62,181 nucleotides of DNA, taken from assembly GCA_024698885.1 (NCBI GenBank), contig JAILQQ010000129.1, positions 1-62,181 of the forward strand. Reading direction: 5' to 3'. Position numbers and translations under genes: made by a program. This DNA is from Lachnospiraceae bacterium. Lineage in GTDB: Bacteria; Bacillota; Clostridia; Lachnospirales; Lachnospiraceae. Positions 1 through 49,957 of the stretch are shown piece after piece (positions within the stretch are counted from its first letter, which is position 1; the number at the start of each line of letters is the position of its first letter). The notes under the pieces are model-generated. The model was not told where the DNA came from and did not search any database. It worked only from the letters and a program-made list of their open reading frames with translations.

Positions 1-137
1 TGAACTTCAGTTCATGCCGATTCGGTCAGCAAGCTGACCGAATCATTTCCTACTGCGCCGATTCGTTCGCGAATCGTGCGCTTAGGCATGAACTTCAGTT
101 CATGCCGATTCGGTCAGCGCTGCTGACCGAATCAATA
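1..137 (-). repeat. Family A triple-hairpin repeat, two tandem units
   Basis: Two head-to-tail units; the left one is cut by the window edge. The complete unit (about 54-137) holds H1 (CGATTCG..CGAATCG), the linker TGCGCTTAG, H2 (GGCATGAAC..GTTCATGCC) and H3 (GATTCGGTCAGC..GCTGACCGAATC). It ends two bases past the stop codon of the gene at 139. Read on the minus strand, as for the adjacent gene, the order is H3-H2-H1. Confidence 0.85.
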
Positions 138-138
138 C

Positions 139-810
139 CTATCTCCTCACACTGACCGTAACGCCGTCAGCGATCGGGAAGATGTTCGTCACGAGGGACG
201 GGTGATGGGTCAGCTCAAATAAATAATCCCGCATTCTCGCATGTATCGTGCGGTTTCTGCGTTCCACCGCGAAACGCGACTCGATCAGCTCACCGTCCTG
301 CAGGACATTATCGGATACCAGCACGCCGTCCGGACGAAGCAGCGTAAGCACTGAAGGCAGGAAATGAATATATTGCGCTTTGGCGGCATCCATAAAGATC
401 AGATCATAGGAGGCGCCCTCCTTTATGAGCTCTCCCATGGCCTTCAGAGCCTCTCCTTCGATGACCCGGATCCTTTCGGAAAACCCGGATGCCCGGATAT
501 TCTCCTTAAGCGGGGCAAGCCGCGGCGCGTATTTTTCAATAGTAGTAATGTTTGCTTTACTGTTTTCGTACTGAGAATACTCCGCCATAAAGATCGCGGA
601 AAAGCCCGTCGCCGCGCCGATCTCCAGGATCTCCCCCGGCTTTTTCAGTGACAGTAACAGTCTTAACAGCTCCTGCATCTCCGGCCGGATTATGGGAATG
701 CCCGCTTCTTTCTCTGTTTTTTCAAGGTCGTTCAGAAAATCCGTATGGCAGCCGTAGAATGATCGGATAAAGGCGGACGTTCTCTCCGCCCTGTCCTCTT
801 TTTCGATCAC
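139..810 (-). CDS. trmR: O-methyltransferase, TrmR/YrrM-like
   Basis: A 223-residue SAM-dependent methyltransferase of the class I O-methyltransferase family. Motif I is EIGAATGFSA (about residues 61-70), and DLIFMDAAKAQY (about 135-146) is the metal- and substrate-binding segment typical of this family. In Firmicutes the gene in this neighbourhood is TrmR, which methylates 5-hydroxyuridine at the tRNA wobble position. That role is inferred from family and context, since catechol-type methyltransferases look similar. The start is GTG, immediately after the TAG stop of the upstream gene, with GGAG five bases before it, so the two genes are translationally coupled. It is the last gene of the mtaB-to-trmR minus-strand run, and a family A repeat follows the stop directly. 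Confidence 0.75.
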   Translation of the reverse strand: MIEKEDRAERTSAFIRSFYGCHTDFLNDLEKTEKEAGIPIIRPEMQELLRLLLSLKKPGEILEIGAATGFSAIFMAEYSQYENSKANITTIEKYAPRLAPLKENIRASGFSERIRVIEGEALKAMGELIKEGASYDLIFMDAAKAQYIHFLPSVLTLLRPDGVLVSDNVLQDGELIESRFAVERRNRTIHARMRDYLFELTHHPSLVTNIFPIADGVTVSVRR

Positions 811-5787: not shown

Positions 5788-5800
5788 TCCAGTTCCTTCC

Positions 5801-5920
5801 TGCGCCGATCCGCTCGCGGATCGTGCGCTTAGGCATGAACCTGTTCATGCCGATCCGGTCGGCTTGCTGACCGGATCATTTCCTCATCTGCGCCGATCCG
5901 CCAGCGGATCGTGCGCTTAC
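5801..5920 (-). repeat. Family A repeat, one full and one partial unit
   Basis: The full unit has H1 CGATCCGCTCGCGGATCG, linker TGCGCTTAG, H2 GGCATGAAC..GTTCATGCC, H3 GATCCGGTCGGC..GCTGACCGGATC and the tail ATTTCC. The second unit stops after H1 and the linker. It lies in the 5' region of mtaB. The stretch from 5921 to 6007 shows nothing recognisable beyond short palindromes (GGCGCTTCGGCGC). Confidence 0.85.
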
Positions 5921-6540: not shown

Positions 6541-6566
6541 AGTTTGTTTTCTTTTTTATTTCCGTC

Positions 6567-6738
6567 CGCGCCGATCCGCTCGCGGATCGTGCGCTTAGGC
6601 ATGAACCTGTTCATGCCGATCCGGTCTGCTTTGCAGACCGAATCATTTCCTCTCCGCGCCGATTTGCCTGCATATCGTGCGCTTAGGCATGAGCCTGTTC
6701 TTGCCGATTCGGTCTGCTTTGCAGACCGAATCATTTCC
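6567..6738 (-). repeat. Family A repeat, two tandem units
   Basis: Unit 1 (6567-6651) has H1 CGATCCGCTCGCGGATCG, H2 and H3 GGTCTGC..GCAGACC. Unit 2 (6656-6738) is degenerate in H1 and H2. The TGA stop of dnaB (6731-6733) is the TGA of the element's end motif, read GGAAATGATTCGG on the minus strand. Confidence 0.9.
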
Positions 6739-8068
6739 TCTTTCTCTCAAGATTCACAAATCTCGTGAATTTATTCAGCCACCCTAACTCCACGACACCG
6801 GTCGGTCCGTTTCTCTGTTTCTGGACCAGGACCTCCGTGATGCCCGGTTTTTCCGTTGTTCCCGGATTATAATACTCATCCCTGTATAAGAACATCACGA
6901 TATCCGCATCCTGCTCGATGGCACCGGATTCCCGCAGATCCGAAAGCATCGGCCTCTTATCCTCTCTTTTCTCCGCCGCCCGGGAAAGCTGGGACAGGGC
7001 GACAACAGGGATATTCAGATCCCTTGCGAGCGTCTTTAAGGACCGGGATATCTCAGAGATCTCCTGCTGTCTGGATTCCGATCTGGAATTTCCCGACATG
7101 AGCTGGAGATAATCGATGATAACAAGGCGCAGATCATTCTCAATCTTATATTTTCTGCACTTCGTCCGCAGCTCGCTGATCGATATCGACGGCGTATCAT
7201 CAAGGATCAGTGCGGAATTTCCGATCTTCACGGCGCTTTCCATGACATACTCCGTTTCATTGTCCTCGAATCTGGCATTGCTCAGCTTCTGGGAATCCAC
7301 TCCCGAATCCATGGCGATCAGACGGTTTACCAGCTGCTCCTTACTCATCTCCAGGCTGAAGACCGCTACGCAGATCCCGTTCTGAACCGCGACGTGATGG
7401 GCGATATTCAGGGCAAAAGCCGTCTTTCCCATAGCAGGCCTGGCCGCGATCAGGATCAGGTCGGAATCCTGCAGTCCGTTCAGCTGCTCGTCCAGATCGA
7501 TAAAGCCCGTCCGTATACCGGTAATCTTGTCATCGCTCATCATAATCTTCTGGAGCCTTACGATCACATTCGCGACGACCTCCCTGATCGGTACGAATTC
7601 CCCGCTGTTTTTCCGCTGCACGATATCAAAGATGCTTTTTTCCGCGTTGTCAAATATCTCATTTAACGGCTTTTTGCGTCCGTAGCAGTCCTCGGTGATC
7701 CCTTCGCTCGTGCGGATCAGGCGTCTGAGCAGCGCGCATTCCTTCACGCTTTCCGCATAGCTTTTTAAGTGGATCGTACTGATATTCAGTTCCATAATGC
7801 CCTGCACGAAAGAAAGGGACGCAATCTCCTCCGGTACGTCCTTCTCCTTCAGATGACTCTGCAGAGTGATCATATCGACCGGCCGGCCGGACTCATTCAG
7901 CTCGAGCATCGCTTCAAAAACGATCCCGTACTGTTTTTCGTAGAAATCATCTTTTTCCAGGATCTCGCCCGCCAGATCGATCGCATCCTTGTCAAGCAGC
8001 ATACAGCCGATCACAGACTGTTCCGCCGCGGAATCAAAGGGCATTTTCCTTTTAATTATCTCATCCAA
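6731..8068 (-). CDS. dnaB: Replicative DNA helicase
   Basis: A 445-residue DnaB/DnaC hexameric helicase for the replication fork. The N-terminal primase-interacting domain contains PFDSAAEQSVIGCML. The RecA-like domain follows with Walker A AARPAMGKTAFALN (about 207-220), Walker B LVIIDYLQLM, and the DnaB motif ALSQLSRAAEKREDKRP. No intein is visible. It begins one base from the end of rplI, the standard rplI-dnaB order. The final codons read ..ERKRK then TGA, and the AGGAAATGA that encodes them is the border of a family A repeat. The last two residues therefore may come from the element. Confidence 0.95.
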   Translation of the reverse strand: MDEIIKRKMPFDSAAEQSVIGCMLLDKDAIDLAGEILEKDDFYEKQYGIVFEAMLELNESGRPVDMITLQSHLKEKDVPEEIASLSFVQGIMELNISTIHLKSYAESVKECALLRRLIRTSEGITEDCYGRKKPLNEIFDNAEKSIFDIVQRKNSGEFVPIREVVANVIVRLQKIMMSDDKITGIRTGFIDLDEQLNGLQDSDLILIAARPAMGKTAFALNIAHHVAVQNGICVAVFSLEMSKEQLVNRLIAMDSGVDSQKLSNARFEDNETEYVMESAVKIGNSALILDDTPSISISELRTKCRKYKIENDLRLVIIDYLQLMSGNSRSESRQQEISEISRSLKTLARDLNIPVVALSQLSRAAEKREDKRPMLSDLRESGAIEQDADIVMFLYRDEYYNPGTTEKPGITEVLVQKQRNGPTGVVELGWLNKFTRFVNLERKRK

Positions 8069-12028: not shown

Positions 12029-12100
12029 ACTGGTACCTCCTTTTGGATTAATAGCCCTGAACCCCTGTTCAGAGCAAGGATTCCGGTTTTACCCGGGTTC

Positions 12101-12203
12101 TGCGCCGGTCTGTCCCAGATCGCGCGCTAAAGAATGAACTTTCGTTCATCCCGATCCGGTTCGCTTGCTGCGAAAATCAGCTCTTTTCAAGCCGGATCAT
12201 CTC
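12101..12203 (-). repeat. Degenerate family A repeat in the rpsF leader
   Basis: H1 is decayed (CGCCGGTCTGTCCCAGATCG), H2 is intact as GAATGAACTTTCGTTCATCC, and H3 is expanded (GATCCGGTTCGC..GCCGGATC, with an internal CAGCTCTTTTCAA). It lies between the rpsF promoter and ATG, so it would be transcribed in the leader. Confidence 0.7.
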
Positions 12204-12223
12204 AATATGTATCACGAGTTACA

Positions 12224-20602: not shown

Positions 20603-20705
20603 CTGTTCATGCCGATTCTGCGCCGATTCGCTTGCGAATCGTGCGCTTAGGAATGAACTTCAGTTCATTCCGATTCGGTCTGCCCGGCAGACCGAATCAT
20701 TTCCT
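20603..20705 (-). repeat. Family A repeat downstream of gdhA
   Basis: Remnant GTTCATGCCGATT, then a full unit with H1 CGATTCGCTTGCGAATCG, H2 GGAATGAAC..GTTCATTCC, H3 GATTCGGTCTGC..GCAGACCGAATC and ATTTCC. A further GC hairpin (GGCCGG..CCGGCC) lies between it and the gdhA stop. Confidence 0.9.
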
Positions 20706-23742: not shown

Positions 23743-23760
23743 TTTTTCATCCTCCTCTCC

Positions 23761-23845
23761 TGCGCCGGTCTGCTTCACAGATCGCGCACTCAGGCATGAA
23801 CCTGTTCATGCCGATCCGGGCTGCCTGTCAGGCCGGATCATTTCC
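23761..23845 (-). repeat. Family A repeat upstream of nhaC
   Basis: H1 CGGTCTGCTTCACAGATCG, linker CGCACTCAG, H2 GGCATGAAC..GTTCATGCC, H3 GATCCGGGCTGCCTGTCAGGCCGGATC, tail ATTTCC. A TATAAT box (minus strand, 23877-23872) lies just upstream, so the element would be in the nhaC leader. Confidence 0.85.
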
Positions 23846-23891
23846 GATTTCTGCGCTGACTATTATACCCCACTCCCTCTGCAATTTCCAC

Positions 23892-33879: not shown

Positions 33880-35080
33880 CCGACTCCATTGCCTCTCTGT
33901 AGAGCATATCTATGTTTTTGCCGGTATCCCCTTGCGCCGGCCCTTCCGCCTTTTTATCCTGCATAAGCCGTTTCTCCGACCGGCGGATCTCGTTCACATT
34001 GGGCTTTGTCACCGGATGCTTCGCGACAAAGATCGTGCAGCAGTCCTCATAGGGCAGGATGGACGTTTCATAGGTTCCGATCTTCTCGGAGATCCGGATG
34101 ATCTCCTGCTTGTCAAAGCCGATGAGCGGCCGGTAAACAGGCATCGTGCAGACCTCGTTCGTAGCCGCGAGGGACTGCATGGTCTGGCTGGCCACCTGAC
34201 CGATGCTCTCGCCGGTAATAAGACCGAGGCACCCGCTTTGCTTCGCCAGGTCCTCCGCGATCCGCATCATATAGCGGCGCATGATGATCGTCAGCTCATC
34301 CTTCGGACATCTCTCATAGATCGCCAGCTGGATATCCGTAAAATTGATCACATGCAGATAGATCGGACCCGTATACAGCGCGATCTGCTTTGCCAGATCA
34401 ACGACCTTCTGCTTCGCGCGCTCGCTGGTATAGGGAGGTGCGTGAAAATAGACCGCGTCGAGCTTCACGCCCCGTTTGCCGATCATATAGCCCGCCACCG
34501 GTGAATCGATCCCGCCGGAGAGAAGCAGCATTCCCTTGCCGTTTGTCCCGACGGGCATCCCGCCAGGCCCTGGTATAATCTCCGAATAGATATAGATGCG
34601 TTCCCGGATCTCCACATTTAAGAGGATCTCCGGCTCATGCACATCTACGCGCATTTGCGGAAAGCGGTCGAGGATCCGGCCGCCAAGCTCCATATTGATC
34701 TCCTGGGAATCGAGCGGATAGTTCTTTCTGGCGCGTCTTGCATGGACCTTAAAACTCTTCTGCTTATCGGGATAAACCTCGTCCAGGTAGGCGATCACCT
34801 GCTCCGAAAGCCTGTCAAAGCCCTCGTCTTCCACATGCACCACCGGACAGATCCCGGTGATCCCGAAAACATGGCGCAGGTTTTCGACTGTTTCCTCAAG
34901 ATCATAGTCTGTCAGGCATTCGATATAAACCCGTCCCGAGGCCTTGCTGACCTCGAATTCTCCCTCGCCCCTCTTCAGGGCGAGACGGATCTGTCGGATC
35001 AGGGCGTCCTCAAACAATCCCCGGTTCTTTCCCTTTATGGCGATCTCCGCGTATTTGATCAAAAAAGCTGTATACTTCAT
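33857..35080 (-). CDS. thiI: tRNA 4-thiouridine synthase / thiamine sulfurtransferase ThiI
   Basis: 407 residues. Ferredoxin-like and THUMP domains (about 1-170) precede the PP-loop ATPase with MLLLSGGIDSPVAGYMIGKRGVKLDAVYFH. GESIGQVASQTMQSLAATNE and EDCCTIFVAKHPVTKP, typical of the Gram-positive form, follow. There is no C-terminal rhodanese domain, so sulfur would come from a partner cysteine desulfurase, which is encoded directly upstream (8-base gap). Acts on U8 of tRNA and in some species in thiamine thiazole synthesis. A short insertion (AEGPAQGDTG) near the C-terminus is GC-rich and unlike relatives I can recall. Confidence 0.94.
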   Translation of the reverse strand: MKYTAFLIKYAEIAIKGKNRGLFEDALIRQIRLALKRGEGEFEVSKASGRVYIECLTDYDLEETVENLRHVFGITGICPVVHVEDEGFDRLSEQVIAYLDEVYPDKQKSFKVHARRARKNYPLDSQEINMELGGRILDRFPQMRVDVHEPEILLNVEIRERIYIYSEIIPGPGGMPVGTNGKGMLLLSGGIDSPVAGYMIGKRGVKLDAVYFHAPPYTSERAKQKVVDLAKQIALYTGPIYLHVINFTDIQLAIYERCPKDELTIIMRRYMMRIAEDLAKQSGCLGLITGESIGQVASQTMQSLAATNEVCTMPVYRPLIGFDKQEIIRISEKIGTYETSILPYEDCCTIFVAKHPVTKPNVNEIRRSEKRLMQDKKAEGPAQGDTGKNIDMLYREAMESDELIVVG

Positions 35081-35088
35081 GTTTTCTC

Positions 35089-36258
35089 CTAACGTCGTAC
35101 GAAGCGGCTGAGCATCGGCAGCAGCTCCTTCAGTGCCGTAACGGTATACAAAAGCTCCTCCTTCGTCGTTTCCGTGGAAAAGCTGAAGCGCACCGTCGAT
35201 TCCAGATATGGTTTGTTAAGGCCGATGGCCTGCAGCGTTTCCGAAGCCGCCCGCTTATGGCTGGAACAGGCGGAGCCGGAGGAAACATAGATCCCCTTTT
35301 CTTCCAGCGCATGCAGCAGGACCTCTGCCCGCACCGCTTCAAAGGAAACGCTGACGATATGCGGCGCTGTTTCGGAAAGGTCGTTTTGAAGCCCGTTGAT
35401 CCGGGCGACCCCGGGAAGCTCCCGCAGAGCGCCAATCAGGTACTCCTTTAAGCCAAAAAGCCGCTCCCGTTCTTCTTCCAGTTTTTCGTGCACAATCGCC
35501 GCGGCCATTGCCATCCCCGCAATGCCCTGCACGTTCTCCGTGCCGGAGCGCAGACCCTTCTGCTGGCCGCCGCCGTAAAGGATCGGCTCGAGCCTGACGC
35601 CGTCTGCGACATATAAAAAGCCGACTCCCTTTGGTCCGTGCAGCTTATGCGCACTGGCGGAGAGCAGATCCACCTTCCATTTTTTCGGAAAGAGCCTTTC
35701 CTTCCCGTAGCCCTGTACCGCGTCTACGTGGAACAGGACAGCGGGATTTTTCTCCTTCGCTGCCCGCACAAGCTCCGGGATCCTCTGGACGGATCCGATC
35801 TCATTATTCGTATGCATAACGGAAACTAAGATCGTATCGTCTCTGACAGCCTCTTTAAGGCTTTCGGGCGAAATAACCCCGGTTTCATCGGGGGAAAGCA
35901 GTGTGATCTCATATCCTCTCTCCTCCAGGGCCTTTAAGGGCATCAGTACCGCCGGATGCTCGATCTTCGTTGAAACAATGTGCTTTCCGCGTCTTGCGTT
36001 GCTTTTCTGCAAAGCGGTGCCAAAAAGCGCCAGATTATCGGATTCCGTACCACCGGAGGTGAAAAGGATCTCCTTTTCGTCCGCTTTCAGCGTCCCGGCA
36101 ATGATCTCCCTTGCCTTCTTAACCTCCTGCTCGGCCGTCACCCCCTTATGGTGCAGGCTCGAAGGATTGCCGTACTCCCTGTCATAAAGCTCGTCCATAT
36201 AGGCCCGTACCGCGTCATAACAGCGGGTCGTCGCCGAATTATCCAGATATACTTCCAT
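35089..36258 (-). CDS. Cysteine desulfurase (NifS family), ThiI partner
   Basis: 389 residues, PLP-dependent class V fold: YLDNSATTRCYDAV at the start, SGGTESDNLALFG, DAVQGYGK, the PLP lysine in SASAHKLHGPKGVGFLY, and the catalytic Cys loop in VSSGSACSSHKRA. It releases sulfur from cysteine as a persulfide. The tight pairing with thiI suggests it feeds tRNA thiolation rather than Fe-S assembly; this follows the NifZ-ThiI pair of Bacillus. A full family A unit lies in its 5' region. Confidence 0.93.
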   Translation of the reverse strand: MEVYLDNSATTRCYDAVRAYMDELYDREYGNPSSLHHKGVTAEQEVKKAREIIAGTLKADEKEILFTSGGTESDNLALFGTALQKSNARRGKHIVSTKIEHPAVLMPLKALEERGYEITLLSPDETGVISPESLKEAVRDDTILVSVMHTNNEIGSVQRIPELVRAAKEKNPAVLFHVDAVQGYGKERLFPKKWKVDLLSASAHKLHGPKGVGFLYVADGVRLEPILYGGGQQKGLRSGTENVQGIAGMAMAAAIVHEKLEEERERLFGLKEYLIGALRELPGVARINGLQNDLSETAPHIVSVSFEAVRAEVLLHALEEKGIYVSSGSACSSHKRAASETLQAIGLNKPYLESTVRFSFSTETTKEELLYTVTALKELLPMLSRFVRR

Positions 36259-36269
36259 TTTTATCTTCG

Positions 36270-36353
36270 TGCCGATCCGCCTGCGGATCGTGCGCTTCAG
36301 AATGAACTTCAGTTCATTCCGATCCGGTCAGCAGGCTGACCGAATCAATTCCT
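36270..36353 (-). repeat. Family A repeat between rsmE and the desulfurase gene
   Basis: A complete unit: H1 CGATCCGCCTGCGGATCG, linker TGCGCTTCA, H2 GAATGAAC..GTTCATTC, H3 GATCCGGTCAGC..GCTGACCGAATC, tail AATTCC. The TGA stop of rsmE (36345-36347) lies in the H3/tail border. This copy is the closest match to the segment inside prmA. Confidence 0.9.
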
Positions 36354-37130
36354 CCCTTCCAATAAAAATACCAGCCAGGAAAGTACCGTCAGCCCGGCCG
36401 TTTCCGTCCTGAGGATCCGCTTTCCGAGGGTGATCTCCTGAAAGCCCTTTTCCACGGCAAGTCCGGTCTCCTCCTCGTCAAAGCCCCCCTCGGGACCGAT
36501 AAACACAGCTATCTTATCCCCCGGCCGGATATCCGAAAAGATCCGGCGGGTCCTGTCCATGCCGGTCTGGTCGGAGAGCTCATAGGGCAGAAGCCTGACG
36601 CCGATCTCCTGCTCCTCCGCGTACCTGAGCGCCTCCGTAAAGGAACGCACGCCGGTAACCTCAGGGATGATCCCGCGCTTTGCCTGCCCGGCCGCTGCCG
36701 CCGCGATCGCCTGATACCGTTCGATCCGTTTTCTTTCCCGTTCCGGAGAGAGCCTGACCACAGAACGCCGCATTGCCACGGGGATGATCGAAAAGACGCC
36801 AAGCTCTACTGCCTTCTGGATGATAAGTTCCATCTTGTCACCCTTGGGCAGACCCTGAAACAGATAGATCCGGCAGGGCAGCTCGATATCCGCTTCCTTG
36901 ACAAAGATCAGCGTAAGCTCCGCTTCCCGTTCTGTCTCATGGTAGGCGTTTAACAGGCAGCGAAGCTCCTTTCCGTTACCCTCTCCGTCCGAAAGCGGTG
37001 TTTTCGGGATCACGGAAATCTCTTCTCCCGGCTTCATGCGGAGTACGTTTCTGATATGATGGTAATCCTCTCCCGTCACGAGGATCTTCTTTCCTTCGAT
37101 CTGTGATTCATCGATAAATATCTGATGCAT
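36345..37130 (-). CDS. rsmE: 16S rRNA m3U1498 methyltransferase
   Basis: 261 residues, RsmE of the SPOUT class. An N-terminal PUA-like domain (YHHIRNVLRMKPGEEISVI) is followed by the trefoil-knot domain: QGLPKGDKMELIIQKAVELGV, MRRSVVRLS, FIGPEGGFDEEE and LGKRILRTETAGLTVLSWL. It methylates U1498 of 16S rRNA. A small insert (SDGEGNGKEL) sits in the PUA domain. The last residues, ..LEGRN, and the TGA are encoded by the edge of a family A repeat. The prmA gene precedes it by 13 bases, the usual Firmicutes pair. Confidence 0.94.
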   Translation of the reverse strand: MHQIFIDESQIEGKKILVTGEDYHHIRNVLRMKPGEEISVIPKTPLSDGEGNGKELRCLLNAYHETEREAELTLIFVKEADIELPCRIYLFQGLPKGDKMELIIQKAVELGVFSIIPVAMRRSVVRLSPERERKRIERYQAIAAAAAGQAKRGIIPEVTGVRSFTEALRYAEEQEIGVRLLPYELSDQTGMDRTRRIFSDIRPGDKIAVFIGPEGGFDEEETGLAVEKGFQEITLGKRILRTETAGLTVLSWLVFLLEGRN

Positions 37131-37143
37131 AACGTTGTTATAT

Positions 37144-38316
37144 TTACGCTTCCTGCGCTGTGATCCCGACCCAGCGGTCCTGTGGCAAAGCAGCGTCCTT
37201 CTCCGGCTCTGTTCCCAGATACGAGATCTCCTGTATCGTAAATCCGTTTTCCTGAAGACATTCTGTGACCGGTTCTTCCTTTTCGCCGATGATACCGGAA
37301 AGAATGCAATGTCCCCCCGGTTTTAAGGCCTTTTTGATCTTTGGTATCAGCGGGATCAGCACCTCTGCCAGGATATTCGCAAGGACCACGTCATACCGGC
37401 CATAGCCGACCAGGTCCTGCACCCTCCGGTCATCGATCAGATTGCCGAGGATCAGCTCAAAGGGCGCGGCATTTGTGCTCTTATCGTCTGTCTGCTCCCA
37501 GGATCCTTTCTCTATCTCAAGGATCTCTGTTTTGTCCGGAATGAACTGAAATGCATTCCCAGGCGCACGTTCCGCGGGCGGATCGCCGCAAACCGGCTGA
37601 TATACGCCCTTCATGGCAACGCCGTTTTTATTCAGATTCTCCCGGCAGGCGGGAACGGCCGCCGGATCAAGGTCCGTGCCGATCACGGAAGAAGCGCCGA
37701 ATTTATACGCCATCAGAGAAAGGATACCGCTGCCGGTACCGATATCGAGAACACGGTCCCCCGTCTTTAAGACCTTGCGGAGCGATTGTATGCAAAGCCT
37801 GGTCGTCTCATGCTTGCCGGTACCGAAGGCGCTGCCGGGATCGATACGGATCGTAAGCGGCGGCAGGGTCTTCCCGTCCTTCTTAAGCGCCTCTTCTTCC
37901 TCCCAGGAAGGAATAAAAAGAATATCATCAATCATGAACTGATGAAAGAACTGCTTCCAGTTATTGAGATAGTCCTGATCCGCAAGCTCCTCCTCCGTTA
38001 TCGCAAGCGTCCCGGCATCCATATAACCCGAAATATCCCGAAGCTCCTCCTTAACGGCCTGAAGCAGCGCTTCGCGCTCCTTTTCCGTATCGCCCTCTTT
38101 TCCCGAAGGAGGCTCAAGATAAAAGCGAAGATACGCAACCCCGTCATCTTCTCCGGTCTCCGGCGGGATATCCACGAACATGCCTGCCTTTTCCGCCTCG
38201 GATAACGGTATCTTATCCTCGATCTCGACGCCCTCGATCCCGAGATCGTAGAGCGCGGAAACGATCACATCCTCCGCTTCCGTTGTCGTTTCTATCGTAT
38301 ATCTTGTATATTTCAT
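37144..38316 (-). CDS. prmA: Ribosomal protein L11 methyltransferase with a repeat-derived insertion
   Basis: 390 residues, longer than the usual 310-330. The SAM site is RIDPGSAFGTGKHETTRLC..VLDIGTGSGILSLMAYKFGA, and VVLANILAEVLIPLIP is the NPP-like catalytic segment; the rest matches PrmA. Residues of about 242-290 (beginning CGDPPAERAPGNAFQFIPDK) have no place in the family. The first 18 codons of this stretch match the H1-H2 half of family A nearly base for base. The insertion falls between the SAM-binding motif and the LGNLIDD strand, so the core is retained and the enzyme may still work. Confidence 0.92.
   Translation of the reverse strand: MKYTRYTIETTTEAEDVIVSALYDLGIEGVEIEDKIPLSEAEKAGMFVDIPPETGEDDGVAYLRFYLEPPSGKEGDTEKEREALLQAVKEELRDISGYMDAGTLAITEEELADQDYLNNWKQFFHQFMIDDILFIPSWEEEEALKKDGKTLPPLTIRIDPGSAFGTGKHETTRLCIQSLRKVLKTGDRVLDIGTGSGILSLMAYKFGASSVIGTDLDPAAVPACRENLNKNGVAMKGVYQPVCGDPPAERAPGNAFQFIPDKTEILEIEKGSWEQTDDKSTNAAPFELILGNLIDDRRVQDLVGYGRYDVVLANILAEVLIPLIPKIKKALKPGGHCILSGIIGEKEEPVTECLQENGFTIQEISYLGTEPEKDAALPQDRWVGITAQEA
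37536..37590. repeat. Family A segment translated inside prmA
   Basis: On the coding strand it reads TGCGGCGATCCGCC, then GTGCGCCTGGGAATG and CAGTTCATTCCGG. Compare the copy at 36270-36320 (GTGCCGATCCGCCTGCGG, GTGCGCTTCAGAATGAAC, TTCAGTTCATTCCG). H2 remains nearly palindromic. The gene reads the H1-to-H3 strand, the opposite orientation to the copies that form gene ends. Confidence 0.85.
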
Positions 38317-38330
38317 GCTTCACCGCCTGT

Positions 38331-38463
38331 CTGCGCCGATCTGCTTTGCAGATCGTGCGCTTGGGCACGAACCTGTTCGTGCCGATCCGGTCGTTTTTCC
38401 GACCGGATCATTTCCTTGTCTGCGCCGATCTGCTTTGCAGATCGTGCGCTTAGGAATGAACTT
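38331..38463 (-). repeat. Family A repeat, one full and one partial unit
   Basis: Unit 1 has H1 CGATCTGCTTTGCAGATCG, H2 GGCACGAAC..GTTCGTGCC, H3 GATCCGGTCG..CGACCGGATC. Unit 2 has H1, the linker and half of H2, then ends. It lies between the divergent prmA and manC genes. H2 here is a third paired variant (ACG/CGT instead of ATG/CAT). Confidence 0.9.
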
Positions 38464-38529
38464 TAAACTTTATTATAACATCGTTGCGTGATTTTGTGAT
38501 AATATTATAAGGAAAAGGGGGAAAACCAT

Positions 38530-39612
38530 ATGCATAAAACAGCCTTGATCATGGCCGGAGGACGGGGGGAGCGCTTCTGGCCGCGCAGCCGTAAAAACCT
38601 GCCCAAACAGTTTCTGTCCCTGACGGACGACGGCAAAACCATGATTCAGCTCACAACGGAGCGCCTGCTGCCCATCGTCGCCATGGAGGATATCTATATC
38701 GTTACAAACAGGGATTATCTTCCCCTGATCAGAGAGCAGCTCCCGGAGCTTCCCTCCGAGAACATCATCTGCGAGCCTGTCGGCCGCAATACCGCGCCCT
38801 GCATCGCGTTGGGCGCCGCGCATATCGCCAAAAAATACGGCGATGAAGATGCTGTAATGATGGTGCTTCCATCGGACCATCTCGTAAAATACAGCTCTCT
38901 CTATCAGACGACCCTCCGGGATGCCTGTGAGGTTGCACAAAAGGGAGAGAATCTGGTGACGATCGGCATTACACCGGATTATCCCGAGACCGGCTATGGC
39001 TATATCAAGTTCGTCAACGAGATTAACGATGAAGACGGCCGTGCCTTCCGGGTCGACAGCTTTACCGAAAAACCGGATCTCGAAAAGGCCAAGGAATACC
39101 TGGCCTCCGACGATTATCTCTGGAACAGCGGCATGTTCCTCTGGAAGCTGTCAACGATCATCAGAAAATACGAAGAACTTCTTCCGGAGATCTACGACGC
39201 CATGCAAAAGATCAAAGCCGCTATCGGCACCCCGTCGCAGGAGCAGCTGATCGAAGAACTTTTTCCGAAGCTCCCTTCGATCTCCATCGACTACGGCATT
39301 ATGGAAAAGGCGGAGAATATCTATACGATCCCGGGAACCTTCGGCTGGGATGACGTCGGCTCCTGGCTCGCGCTTGAGCGCATCAAAAAGTCAAATGAAT
39401 TCGGAAATATCGTAGACGGAAATATCGTAACCATCAATACTTCGAACTGTATCATCCAGGGAACGGAAAAGCTGATCGCCACCGTGGGGCTTAAGGATCT
39501 CGTGATCGTCGATACGAAGGATGCGACGCTGATCTGTGACAGGGATCATACCGCGGATATCAAAAAGGTACTGGAGAACCTGAAGATCTGTAACCGAAAT
39601 GAATATTTATAG
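38530..39612 (+). CDS. manC: Mannose-1-phosphate guanylyltransferase
   Basis: 360 residues: nucleotidyltransferase motif IMAGGRGERFWPRSRKNLPKQFLSL at the start, VGRNTAPCIALGAAHIA, the metal Asp in MVLPSDHLV, GYIKF.., and FTEKPDLEKAKEYL plus the N-S-G-M-F-L-W motif. It makes GDP-mannose from mannose-1-phosphate and GTP for surface glycans. The isomerase domain of long bifunctional ManC is absent. AAAAGGGGG precedes ATG. A weak promoter (TTGCGT, 16 bases, TATAAG) lies at about 38484-38511. Confidence 0.93.
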   Translation: MHKTALIMAGGRGERFWPRSRKNLPKQFLSLTDDGKTMIQLTTERLLPIVAMEDIYIVTNRDYLPLIREQLPELPSENIICEPVGRNTAPCIALGAAHIAKKYGDEDAVMMVLPSDHLVKYSSLYQTTLRDACEVAQKGENLVTIGITPDYPETGYGYIKFVNEINDEDGRAFRVDSFTEKPDLEKAKEYLASDDYLWNSGMFLWKLSTIIRKYEELLPEIYDAMQKIKAAIGTPSQEQLIEELFPKLPSISIDYGIMEKAENIYTIPGTFGWDDVGSWLALERIKKSNEFGNIVDGNIVTINTSNCIIQGTEKLIATVGLKDLVIVDTKDATLICDRDHTADIKKVLENLKICNRNEYL

Positions 39613-39633
39613 AGATAAAGCCGAAGCTCCTCA

Positions 39634-39806
39634 TCGAATAAAGCCTACGGATTGCTTCGCTTCGCTCCCGCAATCCTAACGATCATTCTCAATCCCGCCC
39701 TATCGGGCTACTTGCTCATGATCGTTTAGTGTTTCAAGAAAAAAGGAGCGGATATTCGTGCAAGCACGATATCCGCTCCTTTTTTCTGAAACTGAGCTTT
39801 ATTCGA
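39634..39806. repeat. Family D structured element with terminal inverted repeats
   Basis: Bounded by TCGAATAAAGC (39634-39644) and GCTTTATTCGA (39796-39806). Inside: GGATTGC..GCAATCC, AACGATCAT..ATGATCGTT with a nested CCCG..CGGG, and the terminator at 39731-39792. The right end contains the TAA stop (39799-39801) of the DUF3048 gene. Confidence 0.7.
39731..39792. terminator. Bidirectional terminator between manC and the DUF3048 gene
   Basis: Arms GTTTCA.GAAAAAAGGAGC.. and the complement (28 or so paired bases; loop CAAG), with T6 on the plus side and A6/T6 on the minus side. It can end both converging transcripts. Confidence 0.9.
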
Positions 39807-40947
39807 GCACGATATCATCAAGGGCTGTATCCTGGATCACGCAGACAAAGGTCTTTCCGTTGTTGATCTTGATCTCATTACCCTCCATATCGTAGTAACG
39901 GATCGGAGCGGTATCGAAGTTCCCGTCCCTTGTGCTGTCCGCTTCCCGCCGCCAGGTACCGATCGAGAACTTCCCCTTTGTGCAGTACTGGATGATCCCG
40001 CCGGAATGACAGTCAAACGCCAGATAATCCTTCTGATCAAGCTGGGTCCATTTATTATACTGCATGATCACGTTATCATAGGAAAGCTGCTCCCCGGTCA
40101 GGTCGTCGATCTGCGGTCCGCCGTACTGATAGCGGTCGTACTTCCCTGTTTCCTCATTATACTCAAACCAGGGCTTGTTGATCTTATAATCCGGCTCGAT
40201 ATGCTTCGCGCTGCCGCCGCCCTCATTCGTGATCACCTCATTCAGATCGCAGAAGCGGAATTTGCCCTGAAATCCGTCATAATGGTTTTCCCGATAGCCG
40301 AGCTTTTTAATACCGGCTTCGATACCGGCCGCTGAGGTATAAACATTATGCGGCGCCTGCCGGTCTGTCGTCCGGTAAAAACAGGTATCGCCGGCTTCTC
40401 CGAGACCGTTCAGGTTATCCACATAATCCCGCGCCAGAAGGTCCACCGCGTAGGCAGCCTGACCGAAATGCATATAGATCGCATCAAATTCAAGCGCTGT
40501 ATATACAAAATATTCCCGACAGCTTCTTACCGACCCGATCTTATCCAGGTCGTCATAATTCTCAAATAACCCCATCAGGCGGGTAATGCCGCCCTCCACC
40601 ACATATTCATATACCACATCCGCGTAGGAGATCCCGCTCATGGGCTGTGCTGCTTCCAGATTGTTGAGCATGATGGCGATCGGCCTTCTGTTCCCGATCT
40701 TTTCATCCACAGGATAACCGGAGAGATAGCTCCGCATCATGCCGGGCTCCAGCTGGTTCGGATCCTCCTCCGCGTCGTCGGAGGGCGTCTCCTGCGCAGG
40801 CTCCGTCGTTACCTCCACCGTCGGAGTCTCGGGCACCTGCTCCGTATCATCCTCATCCTTATCCTTTTTGCAGCCATATATGATCCCTATACACAAAACA
40901 ACCGCAAAAAAAACAGCGATTATCTTTTTATTCAATAATCCCTTCAT
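39799..40947 (-). CDS. DUF3048 (YerB-like) lipoprotein
   Basis: 382 residues. N-terminal signal with a lipobox-like Cys (VVLCIGIIYGCKKDK, Cys about 26), an acidic Thr/Glu/Pro linker to about 68, then the DUF3048 domain: RPIAIMLNNLEAAQPMSGISYADVVYEYVVEGGITRLMGLFEN.., GSVRSCREYFVYTALEFDAIYMHFG. The C-terminal DUF3048 part contains AFDCHSGGIIQYCTKGKFSIGTWRR. The function is unknown; it is anchored on the outer face of the membrane. It has a clear promoter, and its stop codon lies in a family D arm. Confidence 0.9.
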   Translation of the reverse strand: MKGLLNKKIIAVFFAVVLCIGIIYGCKKDKDEDDTEQVPETPTVEVTTEPAQETPSDDAEEDPNQLEPGMMRSYLSGYPVDEKIGNRRPIAIMLNNLEAAQPMSGISYADVVYEYVVEGGITRLMGLFENYDDLDKIGSVRSCREYFVYTALEFDAIYMHFGQAAYAVDLLARDYVDNLNGLGEAGDTCFYRTTDRQAPHNVYTSAAGIEAGIKKLGYRENHYDGFQGKFRFCDLNEVITNEGGGSAKHIEPDYKINKPWFEYNEETGKYDRYQYGGPQIDDLTGEQLSYDNVIMQYNKWTQLDQKDYLAFDCHSGGIIQYCTKGKFSIGTWRREADSTRDGNFDTAPIRYYDMEGNEIKINNGKTFVCVIQDTALDDIVLE

Positions 40948-41010
40948 AATATCCTCACCGAAAACAGTTTTTTATTGTGCCGATCTTCCCCTTGTATCTC
41001 ACGACCGGAT

Positions 41011-41041
41011 TTATACTCCCCTCACCCAAGCGTGAGTATAT
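41011..41041. repeat. Short family F relative in the DUF3048 leader
   Basis: TTATACTC..TCAC..GTGAGTATAT, a 31-base hairpin with the same ends as the element at 32471-32621. It would be transcribed in the 5' leader of the DUF3048 gene. Confidence 0.45.
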
Positions 41042-41067
41042 GGAGGATGAACTCCAAATACCCACTA

Positions 41068-41096
41068 ATTATAGTATACTTCTCTTCATAAATCAA
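41068..41096 (-). promoter_or_regulatory. Sigma-A promoter of the DUF3048 gene
   Basis: TTGATT (41096-41091), 17-base spacer, TATAAT (41073-41068) on the minus strand. Confidence 0.8.
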
Positions 41097-41132
41097 CTAC
41101 ATTTTGTGGAAATGCAAACGATCTGCCCCGGA

Positions 41133-42656
41133 TCATTCCGGCGTAAACGCCGCCATCGGCCTGAGCTTAAACAGATTCGCCCGATGCCTTGCGTCGATCT
41201 TTTCCTTCACGGCAGGATCCTCGCAGATGCCTGTCAGAATATAGGTATCTAACGCCTCATAGGTAAAGCCCAGCGCATCCTCATCTGTTTTCCCGGAAAG
41301 GCCGTCCGAGGGAAGCTTATAAATAAACCTGGACGGGATCTGCAGATACTCGCCCAGTTTAATGATCTCCGTTACCGTCAGGTTATGCAGAGGTGAAAAG
41401 TCTCCGGCCGCATCCCCGTAAAGCGTCGAATAGCCGACGTAATTCTCCGAGCGGTTGCAGTTATTCGAAACGCGTCCGTTCATGGTCTGGGCGATGGCAT
41501 AAAGCGTCGTCATCCGGATACGCGGCGGAATATTAAGAAGCATCTGCGGCGATTCCGTGATGCCTGTCACGCTGACTAACCGTCCGTCCCTTGCCATGAC
41601 CCGTGTCTCCGTATTGATCTCCGCTCCGCCGGCTTCGGTGAAAAGTGCCGCCTCGCCGATACAATGTCTGATCCCGTCGGTCGCTTCGCCGATATTGACG
41701 ATGATATAGCTGATCCCGAGCCACTCCGCTACCGCCTTCGACACATCGAGGTCCGACTGGGTATGGTCGGGCATCAGAACGCCGAAAACCCGGTCCTGTC
41801 CGAGCGCCAGCTTGCAGAGCGTCGCCACCGTCGTGGAATCCTTCCCGCCGGAAAGACCTACCACAGCCGTACAGCCCTTACCGTTCTCAAAGAACCAGTC
41901 CTGTATGAACCGGATCAGGTCCGATGCCAGCTTTTCCGGATTAAAATGGGTTTCCAGATACTTTGCCAGATACTCGTTGCCGATGCGAAACGCCGGCTCG
42001 TTCTGCTCAGGCATTTCTTCCTTTAGCCTTTCAAACCCGCCGAGCTTCTGCGTATAGAGACCCCGCCCCTGTACATACCAGGCAACGCTCTCGGGCAGAA
42101 ACCCGGAAACATCCTGTCCCTGCAGGATCCTTTCCCGAATCTCCGAAGAGGAGACGGCATACTTGCTGCCGTAGATCACGCCGATCTGCGCGCGGTACCG
42201 GGTCTTATAATCCTCGATCACCGGCTGGATCGATTCCCAGGTATCCTCGTCCCTGAGGATCACGATGACCCCGACGACCGCGAAGATCCGCTCCGGCTCA
42301 TGCCAGGAGCTCATATCCTTCAGGCAGTCGCTCCCGACGATCCAGTATATCTCGTCTCCCGGCAGCTTCTCCCTGAGTTCCTCGACTGTATCCGCGGTAT
42401 AGGTATTTCCCTCCCTGTTTAATTCCATGGAGGAAACGGTAGCCCAGGGCGTATCCCGAAGCAGGAGCTCAAGCATCTGCAGGCGGTCCGCCTTGTCAGA
42501 GATGCTGTGCGTATCCAGCTTATACCGCGGCAGCCCCGTCGGCATAAAAATAACCTCATCGAGGGATGCCTTTTCATAAGCATCCCTCGCAATAGCCAAA
42601 TGTCCTAAATGAGGCGGATCAAAGGTCCCGCCCAAAACGCCAATTCTACGTCCCAC
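41133..42656 (-). CDS. nadD-nadE: Fused nicotinate-nucleotide adenylyltransferase / NAD synthetase
   Basis: 507 residues that join two consecutive steps of NAD synthesis. Residues 1-205 are NadD: GVLGGTFDPPHLGHLAIA with the HxGH nucleotidyltransferase motif, NTYTADTV, and AVSSSEIRERI (the SSTxxR/SSSEIR motif). Residues of about 235-507 are NH3-dependent NadE: AVVGLSGGKDSTTVA (PP-loop), NIPPRIRMTTLYAIAQ, TLYGDAAGDFSPLHNLTVTEI, and LPSDGLSGKTDEDALGFTYE. A linker of about 30 residues separates them. The start is GTG with AAAGGTAG upstream. No glutaminase domain is present, so ammonia would be the N donor. It starts 31 bases after the sugar permease gene and may share that transcript. Confidence 0.93.
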   Translation of the reverse strand: MGRRIGVLGGTFDPPHLGHLAIARDAYEKASLDEVIFMPTGLPRYKLDTHSISDKADRLQMLELLLRDTPWATVSSMELNREGNTYTADTVEELREKLPGDEIYWIVGSDCLKDMSSWHEPERIFAVVGVIVILRDEDTWESIQPVIEDYKTRYRAQIGVIYGSKYAVSSSEIRERILQGQDVSGFLPESVAWYVQGRGLYTQKLGGFERLKEEMPEQNEPAFRIGNEYLAKYLETHFNPEKLASDLIRFIQDWFFENGKGCTAVVGLSGGKDSTTVATLCKLALGQDRVFGVLMPDHTQSDLDVSKAVAEWLGISYIIVNIGEATDGIRHCIGEAALFTEAGGAEINTETRVMARDGRLVSVTGITESPQMLLNIPPRIRMTTLYAIAQTMNGRVSNNCNRSENYVGYSTLYGDAAGDFSPLHNLTVTEIIKLGEYLQIPSRFIYKLPSDGLSGKTDEDALGFTYEALDTYILTGICEDPAVKEKIDARHRANLFKLRPMAAFTPE

Positions 42657-42687
42657 TGTTCTACCTTTATCAGGAATTTCTGATTCC

Positions 42688-43863
42688 TTATGCCTTCTTT
42701 CTCTTGCTCATCAGATCAGCGGTAACGGCGCCCAGAAGTACGGCACCCTTCACGATCTTCTGAATATCCGTCGACCATCCGAACAGGGACATGCCGTTAT
42801 TCAGGATACCCATGATGAACGCACCGACAACCGCGCCGACGATCGTTCCGGCACCACCGGCCACGGCCGCGCCGCCGATGTAGCAGGATGCGATGGCATC
42901 CATCTCGAAACCGTCACCGGCCTTCGGGGTCGCGGAACCGTTACGGGCGGACAGCACGATACCGGCTATCGAGGAAAGAACGCCCATGTTCACATATACC
43001 CAGAAGAAAACCTTTTTGGTATCAATACCGGACAGGTTTGCCGCTTTTCTGTTACCGCCGAGCGCGTAGATCTGACGGCCTGCCACCGTTTTGCTGGTAA
43101 TGAATCCGTATATCGCGATCAGTACGACCATGATCAGCAGTACGAACGGAAGTCCGTTATATCTGGAAAGCTTATAGAAGAAGAACCAGATGATGAAGAG
43201 CATGGCAGCTAACTTCAGAGCGATCTGCCAGGTCGGATTAACCGCAAAACCGTATTTTTTCTTGGTTGCGTAGCTTTTGAATTCGGATATGACCAAAATA
43301 ACGGAGGCGACGATCGCAACGGCAATACTTACGAGATCCAGCGTCCCGTCGCCGAAGGGTATCTTGATGACCGGCAAAAAGCCCGCGCCGATAAAGTTAT
43401 AGGCCTGGTCAAACGGACCCTTTGTCTGTGCCTGTAAGAGCGTATAGGTAAGACCACGCCCCATTAACATCGTAGCCAGGGTAGTTACGAAAGGCGGGAT
43501 CCCGAGGTAAGCGATAAAGAATCCGGCAAAGACACCGACTAAGAAGCCTACTAACAGGGCCGCGATGATCGCGATCCACATGTTCATCTTATAGTCCATC
43601 ATGATGATACCGGCAACAGAACCGCATACCGCAACGACCGAGCCGACGCCCAGGTCGATATTACCGGTCAGAACGCAGAGCAGCATACCGATCGCCAGGA
43701 TAACAACGTATCCGTTCTGCATGATCAGGTTATTGACGTTCATCGGGGTGGTATTCGCGCTCTTTGTCAGTATCGCGAACACAAGATAAATAATGATCAG
43801 GGCAAAAAACATACCATACTGTTTCATGTCCATATTCACAACTTTTTTACTCTTCGTTTCCAT
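42688..43863 (-). CDS. gguB: Multiple-monosaccharide ABC transporter permease (GguB/MmsB-like)
   Basis: 391 residues, about 10-11 membrane segments. LLCVLTGNIDLGVGSVVAVCGSVAGI and GRQIYALGGNRKAANLSGIDTKKVFFWVYVNMGVLSSIAGIVLSARNGSATP are the sugar-permease (BPD_transp_2) signatures, and the long form with the extra middle segments fits GguB/XylH-type permeases. It overlaps the ATPase gene by 17 bases. Likely substrates are aldoses such as arabinose, xylose or galactose. Confidence 0.9.
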   Translation of the reverse strand: METKSKKVVNMDMKQYGMFFALIIIYLVFAILTKSANTTPMNVNNLIMQNGYVVILAIGMLLCVLTGNIDLGVGSVVAVCGSVAGIIMMDYKMNMWIAIIAALLVGFLVGVFAGFFIAYLGIPPFVTTLATMLMGRGLTYTLLQAQTKGPFDQAYNFIGAGFLPVIKIPFGDGTLDLVSIAVAIVASVILVISEFKSYATKKKYGFAVNPTWQIALKLAAMLFIIWFFFYKLSRYNGLPFVLLIMVVLIAIYGFITSKTVAGRQIYALGGNRKAANLSGIDTKKVFFWVYVNMGVLSSIAGIVLSARNGSATPKAGDGFEMDAIASCYIGGAAVAGGAGTIVGAVVGAFIMGILNNGMSLFGWSTDIQKIVKGAVLLGAVTADLMSKRKKA

Positions 43864-45415
43864 CTCCGTCTCCCTTCCTGTTATGAGCCATTATGCACTG
43901 CATGATCTTTTCCTGTGAAACCTCTTCCTTCGTCAGTTCTCCTGCGATCTCGCCGTCATTGATAACGTAGATCCTGTCACACGTACCGATGATCTCCGGC
44001 ATTTCAGAAGATATGACGATCACAGCCTTTCCGGCCTGTGCAAGCTCGTTGATCACGCAATAGATCTCATATTTTGCGCCTACATCAATACCTCTGGTAG
44101 GCTCGTCCATGATCAGGACATCCGGCTGGGTCATCATCCATTTGGAGACCACGACCTTCTGCTGATTACCACCGGAAAGAGATCCGACTACCTGATTGAT
44201 GGAGTTGGTTTTCACCTTGATCCGTTTTCTGTATTCTTCAGCTGCTACGATCTCATCATTGGCATTGATCACTCCATGCCGGGAGAAGAAAAACGGCCTG
44301 GCGGCGATGGTCATGTTCTCCTTTACGTCGCCGATCAGATTCAGTCCGTAGGTCTTACGGTCCTCTGAAATATAGGCCAGCTTGTTTTTCACAGCATCCT
44401 TCACCGTCTTCAGATGCACTTCCTGTCCGTTGATGAAAACCTGCCCGGAAATCTTCTGTCCGTAGCTTCTGCCGAACAGGCTCATCGCAAGCTCCGTTCT
44501 GCCGGCGCCCATCAGGCCTGCCAGGCCCACCACCTCGCCGGACCGGACCTGAAGGTTGATATTCTTGAGCATCTGGCGGTTCTCATCATCGGGATGAAAT
44601 ACATTCCAGTTCTTTACTTCAAAGATCACATTGCCGATCTCCACCCCTTCTCTGACAGGATAGCGGTTCGTCATCTCGCGGCCCACCATTGCCTTGATCA
44701 CGCGGTCTTCCGAATAATCATCCACACCCTTTACGAGTGTTTCAATGGTCTTTCCGTCACGGATGATCGTAACCGAATCAGACACATATTCGATCTCGTT
44801 CAGCTTATGGGAAATGATGATGCAGGTGATCCCCTGTCTTTTCAGTTCCAGCATGATATCCAGGAGTTTCCGGCTTTCTTCGTCATTCAGTGCGGCCGTC
44901 GGTTCGTCAAGGATCAGCAGCTCCACCTTTTTCGCCATCGCTTTTGCGATCTCGATCAGCTGCTGCTTACCCACACCCAACGTATTGACGGGAACATTGA
45001 CATTCTCATGCTCCAGTCCGACCCTCGCTAACATCTCCTGCGCGCGTCTTCTTGTTTCCGTCCAGTCGATCACGCCCTTCATGCTTGTACGCTCATTGCC
45101 GAGAAACACGTTCTCCGCCACGGACAAAAGCGGACTCAGCGCAAGCTCCTGGTGGATGATAACAATGCCCTTCGCTTCCGAATCTCTCAGGTTATGAAAG
45201 ACGCAATGCTCACCCTTGTAGACGATATCTCCTTCATAGGTACCGTGAGGGTAGACACCGGACAGAACATTCATCAAGGTTGATTTTCCGGCTCCGTTTT
45301 CACCACATAACGCGTGAATCTCCCCTTTTCTGACCTGAATATTAACGTCGTCCAGGGCCTTTACTCCGGAAAATTCTTTGGTTATGTGATTCATTTCCAA
45401 GATGTATTCCGACAT
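43847..45415 (-). CDS. gguA: Multiple-monosaccharide ABC transporter ATPase (GguA/MmsA-like)
   Basis: 522 residues with two ABC domains in one chain. Domain 1 has Walker A CGENGAGKST (about 37-46), a reduced signature NTLGVGKQQL and Walker B LLILDEPTAAL. Domain 2 has the degenerate Walker A GLMGAGRTE, signature SLSGGNQQK and Walker B LIMDEPTRGID. This asymmetry is normal for carbohydrate uptake ATPases of the RbsA/XylG class. It energises uptake through the permease encoded next. Confidence 0.93.
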   Translation of the reverse strand: MSEYILEMNHITKEFSGVKALDDVNIQVRKGEIHALCGENGAGKSTLMNVLSGVYPHGTYEGDIVYKGEHCVFHNLRDSEAKGIVIIHQELALSPLLSVAENVFLGNERTSMKGVIDWTETRRRAQEMLARVGLEHENVNVPVNTLGVGKQQLIEIAKAMAKKVELLILDEPTAALNDEESRKLLDIMLELKRQGITCIIISHKLNEIEYVSDSVTIIRDGKTIETLVKGVDDYSEDRVIKAMVGREMTNRYPVREGVEIGNVIFEVKNWNVFHPDDENRQMLKNINLQVRSGEVVGLAGLMGAGRTELAMSLFGRSYGQKISGQVFINGQEVHLKTVKDAVKNKLAYISEDRKTYGLNLIGDVKENMTIAARPFFFSRHGVINANDEIVAAEEYRKRIKVKTNSINQVVGSLSGGNQQKVVVSKWMMTQPDVLIMDEPTRGIDVGAKYEIYCVINELAQAGKAVIVISSEMPEIIGTCDRIYVINDGEIAGELTKEEVSQEKIMQCIMAHNRKGDGDGNEE

Positions 45416-45446
45416 CCTATACGCTCCTTCTTCTAAATTCTAAGAA

Positions 45447-45474
45447 AACGGGTGGCAGCTTTCTGCCGCCACCC
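45447..45474 (-). terminator. Intercistronic hairpin between binding-protein and ATPase genes
   Basis: On the minus strand GGGTGGC.GCAG, loop AAA, (C)TGCCACCC, then GTTTTC. A partial terminator here would explain more binding protein than ATPase, a common arrangement. Confidence 0.7.
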
Positions 45475-45510
45475 ATCTTTTGAAAACATGGTTTCTGATT
45501 GTAACTGAAC

Positions 45511-46668: not shown

Positions 46669-46729
46669 GATTTTCCTCCCTTAAATATTGTGAATTTTTC
46701 CGGCCGTTCCTCAAAACAGCCCAATAATG

Positions 46730-46758
46730 ATTTTAAGATAATTTGTGAAGTATGTCAA
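46730..46758 (-). promoter_or_regulatory. Sigma-A promoter of the sugar ABC transporter operon
   Basis: TTGACA (46758-46753), 17-base spacer, TAAAAT (46735-46730) on the minus strand. The 267-base divergent gap is very AT-rich; a weaker plus-strand candidate (TTGTTG, TATAAA near 46828-46854) faces the GT2 gene. Confidence 0.82.
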
Positions 46759-46894
46759 TAAAATGTATAAAATTCGATAAATGAAATGTAAATAATTGAT
46801 AAATAGCAAAGCATTGCGCAACACTCTTGTTGTAAACCGGATTATGTTATAAAATAACAGAGAGTATAAATATAATGAAATAAAACATCAAACG

Positions 46895-46922
46895 AAATGA
46901 TCCGGTCGCGGATCAGCGCGGA
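46895..46922 (+). repeat. Family A remnant in opposite orientation
   Basis: GAAATGATCCGGTC joined to GCGGATCAGCGCG: the tail and outer halves of H3 and H1 with everything between deleted. It faces the plus strand, matching the direction of the adjacent gene. Confidence 0.55.
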
Positions 46923-46935
46923 TAAGGAGTCTGAG

Positions 46936-47640: not shown

Positions 47641-47669
47641 TCTAAGGCTTTAAGCCGGATGATGGTCTT

Positions 47670-49802: not shown

Positions 49803-49819
49803 CAGAATGAAAAAAAAGT

Positions 49820-49852
49820 AACTGCCCGGTCATCCCGGGCAGTTGTTGTTTT
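49820..49852 (+). terminator. Terminator of the GT2/GT-C operon
   Basis: AACTGCCCGG, loop, CCGGGCAGTT then GTTGTTTT. Confidence 0.85.
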
Positions 49853-49957
49853 GGCGGATCATTTCCTTTCTGCGCCGATTCGCTTGCGAATCGTGCGCTT
49901 AGGAATGAACTTCAGTTCATTCCGATCCGGTCAGCAAGCTGACCGAATCATTTCCTT
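49853..49957 (-). repeat. Family A repeat downstream of the RpiB-like gene
   Basis: A GGATCATTTCC tail remnant, then a full unit with H1 CGATTCGCTTGCGAATCG, H2 GGAATGAAC..GTTCATTCC, H3 GATCCGGTCAGC..GCTGACCGAATC and ATTTCC. The TGA stop of the RpiB-like gene (49948-49950) is the border TGA of the element. Confidence 0.9.

Follow-up and report, generated by a model that had tools for sequence, protein, structure and literature searches.

Palindromic repeats that become part of host proteins include the Rickettsia and Wolbachia palindromic elements (RPEs and WPEs), RPEs being reported as about 100-150 nt with long stem-loops. Two further groups are comparable. GTAG/CGTC intragenic REPs are small hairpin repeats that are mostly intergenic, with some lying wholly in ORFs, where grouped ones encode 20-30 aa (PMC3733652), and bacterial MITEs with ORFs (ERIC, YPAL and the 107-nt Correia element) span about 100-200 nt, have stable RNA structure and carry frames fused to genes (PMC2229807). 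The same account describes ERIC as co-transcribed with its neighbours, with an orientation that matters, and some MITE-like elements as devoid of terminal inverted repeats (PMC2229807). Several bacteria are known to carry REPs or MITEs in frame inside genes (PMC3733652, PMC2229807, PMC10969869, PMC3767692). The main text of PMC3733652 has no mention of Firmicutes or Clostrid, and the papers listed in our literature searches included no report of such elements in Clostridia, which is no proof of absence, subscription papers being mostly outside their reach.

Here, we describe family A, a dispersed repeat found in the window (the whole 62,181-nt stretch of DNA analysed) and elsewhere in its genome, G000. 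Like the protein-coding repeats of the RPE type, family A has in-frame copies in conserved protein genes (six genes) that are absent from the orthologues, and most of its copies lie outside genes. Unlike RPEs, in a comparison made by description rather than by sequence, it measures about 85-90 nt, folds into three separate hairpins, belongs to a Lachnospiraceae-related genus and has been found coding on both strands. It resembles MITEs with ORFs in size, RNA structure and open frames fused to genes (PMC2229807). Unlike MITEs, its consensus has ends, TCTGCGCCGAT and ATCATTTCCT, that do not form an inverted repeat when compared by eye; unlike REPs, its consensus has neither a GTAG nor a CGTC tag on either strand (also by eye), and its unit is a three-hairpin array. 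A search for a Y1 (RAYT-type) transposase (PF01797) as the mobiliser found no candidate in the genome: G000 gave 0 matches, though at 97.72% completeness the gene could be missing from the assembly, and 5 of 14 control genomes gave matches. Target-site duplications of 2, 3, 4, 5, 8 or 9 nt were not above shuffled pairing around 170 full copies, a test that an old or variable duplication would escape. Because the tag, the Y1 transposase, the terminal inverted repeat and the duplication all fail to appear, we do not file family A as a REP or a MITE.

At E <= 1e-3, the window holds 14 family A copies, of which 13 are on the plus strand and the only one on the minus strand is the copy in prmA. Full plus-strand copies lie at 52..140, 5799..5884, 6565..6651, 6653..6739, 20617..20705, 23759..23846, 36266..36353, 38330..38416 and 49869..49956. 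Some stand in tandem: the copy at 6653..6739 follows that at 6565..6651 with 88-nt spacing, and partial plus-strand copies at 5888..5919 (E 6.6e-05) and 38420..38463 adjoin those at 5799..5884 and 38330..38416, the latter upstream of prmA. Another partial plus-strand copy (1..51) is cut by the window start, and a diverged one lies at 12099..12205 (plus, 56.4 bits). Nearly all of the space separating rsmE from a cysteine desulfurase gene is taken up by the copy at 36266..36353, which supplies the rsmE stop codon, as the ends of some GTAG/CGTC REPs do for their neighbours (PMC3733652). The window copies share a unit of about 88 nt with three hairpins, H1 to H3, and changes on both sides affect 6 of the 32 base pairs predicted from nine of them. 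Family A has no match in Rfam at gathering scores. The window also carries two Clostridiales-1 RNAs (RF01699), at 39639-39801 (minus) and 23963-24141 (plus), one strong (120.3 bits) and a weaker one that only just reaches the gathering score (48.2) and has a family A copy some 120 nt away, and a 55-nt inverted pair unrelated to family A (6067-6121 and 11200-11254, 85% complementary, 5 kb apart).

The minus-strand copy lies in prmA, the gene for ribosomal protein L11 methyltransferase (37144-38316, minus strand), which has an intact reading frame of 390 aa and whose product matches PF06325 and TIGR00406 in profile searches. An inverted-repeat search pairs the stretch 37537-37592 with three window copies at 81-82%, and a search of this stretch against the whole genome returns further family A copies, the best match having E 8.6e-11 and 85% identity across 54 nt. 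A profile built from nine window copies, with the prmA copy left out, recovers that copy at E 7.9e-07 and 29.6 bits across the 1.73 Mb sampled; the same profile run on the reversed sample gave no match below E 0.37. When 49 codons of the prmA insert were synonymously recoded, 757 of 1000 recodings scored at all, the highest at 20.3 bits, and none reached 29.6. The likeness therefore resides in the DNA and is no by-product of the protein sequence, and the independent model and the recodings bear out the initial annotation, which had read a family A repeat in frame inside prmA.

The partial copy, made of hairpins H1 and H2, occupies 37537..37590 on the minus strand and contributes 18 in-frame codons, CGDPPAERAPGNAFQFIP, as residues 243-260. 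It sits within a species-specific insert of about 50 codons (about 37462..37617, minus strand; residues about 234-285) between NKNGV and FELILGN. An insert of some 48 codons had been placed at 37446-37590; an insert of about that length is there, but it is shifted by some 16-27 nt. Similarly, 18 codons had been matched to H1-H2 at the start of the insert, and both the number and the hairpins hold, but the codons do not come first: about 9 precede them and about 25 follow, all without detectable repeat similarity. In this copy the sequence profile matches positions 2-54 of about 86 and does not recognise hairpin H3, and the covariance model spans the full copy only by allowing deletions (66 nt, 30.5 bits). 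In the general topology of class I methyltransferases, loops after helices are found on the side opposite the SAM pocket. When PrmA is aligned with HMMER to solved structures (1ufk from Thermus, and 3grz), the insert site falls at a short connection after the motif corresponding to NGV.

The insert is absent from all 34 other PrmA rows aligned, which come from 33 of the 36 genus genomes searched: two rows come from G021, G031 contributed a divergent homologue, no row was obtained for G023, G027 or G033, and the rows of G019, G035 and the second from G021 are cut by contig ends with the insert site included. It is equally absent from the 31 further loci aligned out of 67 found in GTDB genomes, two of which (L095 and L153) are the same records as G002 and G028. 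The alignment of relatives, suggested at the outset, thus finds the insert in none of them whether or not the genome carries family A; in the relatives examined, the usual PrmA sequence does not include the segment. Named PrmA matches in GTDB genomes are mostly from Lachnospiraceae and related MAGs, and the nearest are Lachnospiraceae MAGs, which fits the placement of the host in Clostridia. At the insert site, PrmA of G024 has a different loop of about 22 extra residues, and a distant PrmA homologue (L155) has about 10 extra residues. PrmA of G026 (L039, G026:C60) has yet another insert, roughly 30 residues long and located ahead of the SAM motif. A family A origin was rejected for the G024 and G026 inserts, neither of which has family A similarity. 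Given the different loop of G024 and the extra residues of L155 at the same site, the non-repeat part of the G000 insert may be an older loop; on the best explanation, the prmA copy is an old partial one, in a loop that was probably already long in the lineage. PrmA of G000 also has the longest end branch of the PrmA tree (0.76, against a median of 0.21 over 33 rows), which may mean that the gene or the lineage has evolved faster and leaves room for relaxed constraint on prmA.

We identified in-frame family A copies in six G000 genes: prmA, an acyltransferase, a CD1871A-family protein, two antiporter-like subunits and pyrK. The scan kept copies with an open frame and coding-like flanks, and candidates were then read individually; because it is heuristic, six is a lower bound. 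Four of the five copies outside prmA are full length, and protein alignments place the in-gene copies in gaps of the orthologues. The gene for a membrane protein with an Acyl_transf_3 domain (L069:16612-17835) holds a copy at 17283-17365 (E 2.4e-21 with the model of nine window copies, which also gives the E values of the other in-gene copies below). This copy is absent from the aligned homologues of 11 other genomes, the nearest being that of G019 (73-76% in two pieces). The G024 acyltransferase (L165, G024:C26) has long inserts of its own, one of them near the loop that holds the repeat in G000, so loops of this protein seem generally tolerant of insertion. A second gene, for a small membrane protein of the CD1871A family (L174:1690-2214; NF040920 at 31.7 bits, just below the cut-off of 32), has a copy at 2000-2071 (E 3.2e-15) that replaces a variable linker, giving 174 aa versus 159 in the G017 homologue, a region where the protein alignment is uncertain. 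A partial family A copy also lies just downstream of the CD1871A-family gene (L228:2027-2058, G000:C28, E 8.7e-06).

Two Proton_antipo_M subunits of one gene cluster carry the repeat as well. In the first (L198:3758-5140, copy 4941-5023, E 9.7e-25), the copy is a clean insertion of about 28 residues relative to five relatives; it passed the looser scan filter and not the stricter one. In the second (ndA, L198:154-2289), the copy at 2165-2248 (E 5.2e-20) lies at the N terminus, the start codon of ndA being an inferred one. The same locus contains three tandem 126-nt repeats that are possibly coding (L198:13608-13985). In pyrK (L276:11100-12008, copy 11422-11508, E 1e-23), PyrK matches in 29 of 30 other genomes end at or before residue 166 or start at or after residue 207, and none spans the copy; an example of a peptide spanning a junction or lying within the repeat part of PyrK is LCADLFTDRALRNELLFIPIR. 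Searches of 39 relatives' loci around the acyltransferase, antiporter and CD1871A genes with two profiles found no family A (best E 0.62), and none of the 14 copies in a 170-kb sample of G019 lies in frame in a gene. Several candidates were excluded from the cases: a long ORF with a weak profile match (L068:12673-12727, E 0.003-0.004), ten copies that extend across one end of a called gene, and copies just upstream of gene starts that share the open frame of the gene (one of them in G019, L254), since translation probably begins downstream of these. With five more genes holding in-frame copies, the likeness to Rickettsia palindromic elements first proposed from prmA becomes a genome-wide pattern.

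Most family A copies lie elsewhere. In 122 stretches of G000 (1,734,973 nt, 46.7% of the genome) we counted 258 copies at E <= 1e-3, of which 171 are full length. They comprise 205 between genes, 37 at contig ends, 10 that reach 22-57 nt into one end of a called gene and 6 in frame inside genes. A covariance model gives at least 157 matches in G000 with 150 candidates scored. When the same approach was applied to 37 genomes of the genus, scoring no more than 120 candidates in each, family A was found in three only: G000 (at least 120 matches), G019 (71) and G024 (8). Under stricter filters and with 22 candidates scored, a survey of 196 genomes of the order has family A in G000 only among the matches listed. 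The three carriers form one group in the PrmA tree, built from 33 rows with G031 and G035 left out (support 95/89; 96% of 200 bootstrap trees), so a single gain in their ancestor is the simplest history. One family A copy searched with its flanks against plasmid and phage records had no match.

Orientation was scored against our own simple gene calls (1377 genes, 88% coding). Of the 145 copies that lie between co-directional genes, 138 run antisense to them (binomial p 1.1e-32), as do 112 of 118 when only long genes are considered in a 1.30-Mb sample and 8 of 9 in G019. Inside genes, 4 of 6 copies are sense, compared with 7 of 145 between co-directional genes (Fisher p 0.0002). In three stretches that have copies between gene pairs on both strands, the copies follow the genes in 10 of 12 cases (Fisher p 0.067), so transcription is weakly favoured over replication as the cause of the bias. 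Two of the three sense frames are usually open (in 120 and in 102 of 135 copies; the third is open in 2) and antisense frames are mostly closed (open in 21, 38 and 14 of 128), with 32 of 167 copies not placeable in register; translation alone of all 167 copies gives nearly the same totals (273 of 501 frames open in sense, 96 of 501 in antisense). In post hoc calculations on six cases, open frames combined with 50:50 insertion predict 74% sense copies in genes (4 of 6 seen; probability of at least 4, 0.82), and open frames combined with the intergenic orientation bias predict 13% (probability of at least 4 of 6, 0.003). One tentative and on balance unlikely account is that insertion is neutral to orientation, that the antisense bias arises later through selection on mRNA, and that in-gene copies, filtered for open frames, keep the 50:50 choice; if so, the element would act on RNA between genes and as a peptide donor inside them.

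Could family A be shaped chiefly by an effect on mRNA, such as processing, protection or avoidance of termination, with the in-gene copies as by-products? We regard this as a serious possibility that falls somewhat short of even, and it is compatible with the best explanation given below rather than opposed to it. The antisense excess in both G000 and G019 and the base pairs changed on both sides speak for it, as does the sequence of the avoided sense orientation, in which H3 and ATTTCC are followed by a moderately T-rich flank (T at 74, 48, 46 and 58% of the first four positions). Sense copies thus resemble terminators more and might end transcription in operons, a possible cause of the bias. 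A scan flagged one copy, with H3 at 38384-38409, as terminator-like; against this, the scan of 35000-50500 returned 20 sites versus a mean of 14.1 in shuffled sequence, so that a single flag means little, and one flagged copy is too little to claim a terminator reading for family A. In the orientation usually transcribed, moreover, the flank after the copy is not T-rich. A reading centred on the protein instead, in which the encoded peptide is under selection because it provides the protein with a beneficial hydrophilic loop or linker, and the frame is maintained for this reason, strikes us as improbable. It would account for the choice of H2 frame, as all six in-gene copies read H2 in the HEPVHA or NELQFIP frame and not the GMNLFM frame (judged by eye), with a probability of about 0.007 if drawn from open frames, in a post hoc test on six cases. 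It would also suit the acyltransferase, the CD1871A protein and the L198:3758-5140 antiporter, three of the six, in which the copy falls between putative membrane helices as read by eye. The remainder of the peptide differs between the two orientations, however, and simple tolerance would also keep a hydrophilic frame. We know of no binding motif in the repeat-encoded peptides.

Two other readings question whether in-gene copies are genuine, the first of them for prmA. That the prmA insert is an ordinary lineage-specific loop, similar to family A by chance or through amino-acid composition, gains something from the unrelated loop of G024 at the same site and from the roughly 32 of 50 inserted codons without repeat similarity. 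The profile score, the recodings and the empty reversed sample contradict it, as do the clearer copies in the five other genes, and we judge it very improbable for the insert; the 18-codon part speaks against it, and it stands for the flanking codons. Even harder to credit is an origin of the in-gene copies as assembly artefacts, with repeats wrongly joined into genes. The assembly is in draft form, with 266 contigs (97.72% completeness, 4.78% contamination), and near-identical repeats can yield false joins. Yet all six genes keep one frame, with orthologous sequence in order on both sides of the copy (essentially on one side in ndA), and the prmA copy, diverged and partial, is unlike the product of a false join.

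Taken together, these observations make it very probable that family A is a lineage-restricted dispersed repeat, located mostly between genes, which is translated in host proteins when in frame and is tolerated there. It would have multiplied in one lineage of a Lachnospiraceae-related genus, reaching hundreds of copies in this species, with a copy occasionally landing inside a gene. Such a copy would survive only with an open repeat frame and a continued gene frame, so that the element would come to be translated in the host protein, contributing some 18-29 residues, largely hydrophilic, to a loop or to a region close to one terminus. That the copies exist, which frames they use, that relatives lack them and that their distribution is restricted can be read directly from the sequence. 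We infer that proteins with repeat-encoded residues are made and work; the peptide would be tolerated rather than useful, and the element presumably is or was mobile. On our best reading, family A works like the Rickettsia palindromic elements, a kind already known elsewhere.

If confirmed, protein evolution through in-frame capture of short palindromic repeats would extend to Clostridia, beyond Rickettsia, Wolbachia and the further bacteria already known for it. Several inserts are nearly intact and therefore probably recent, and comparison of G000 with G019 and G024 offers before-and-after protein pairs between related species. With PrmA, PyrK and similar enzymes, one could then test directly whether such peptides are tolerated or useful, and the contrast in orientation between intergenic and intragenic copies provides a handle on the action of the element on RNA.
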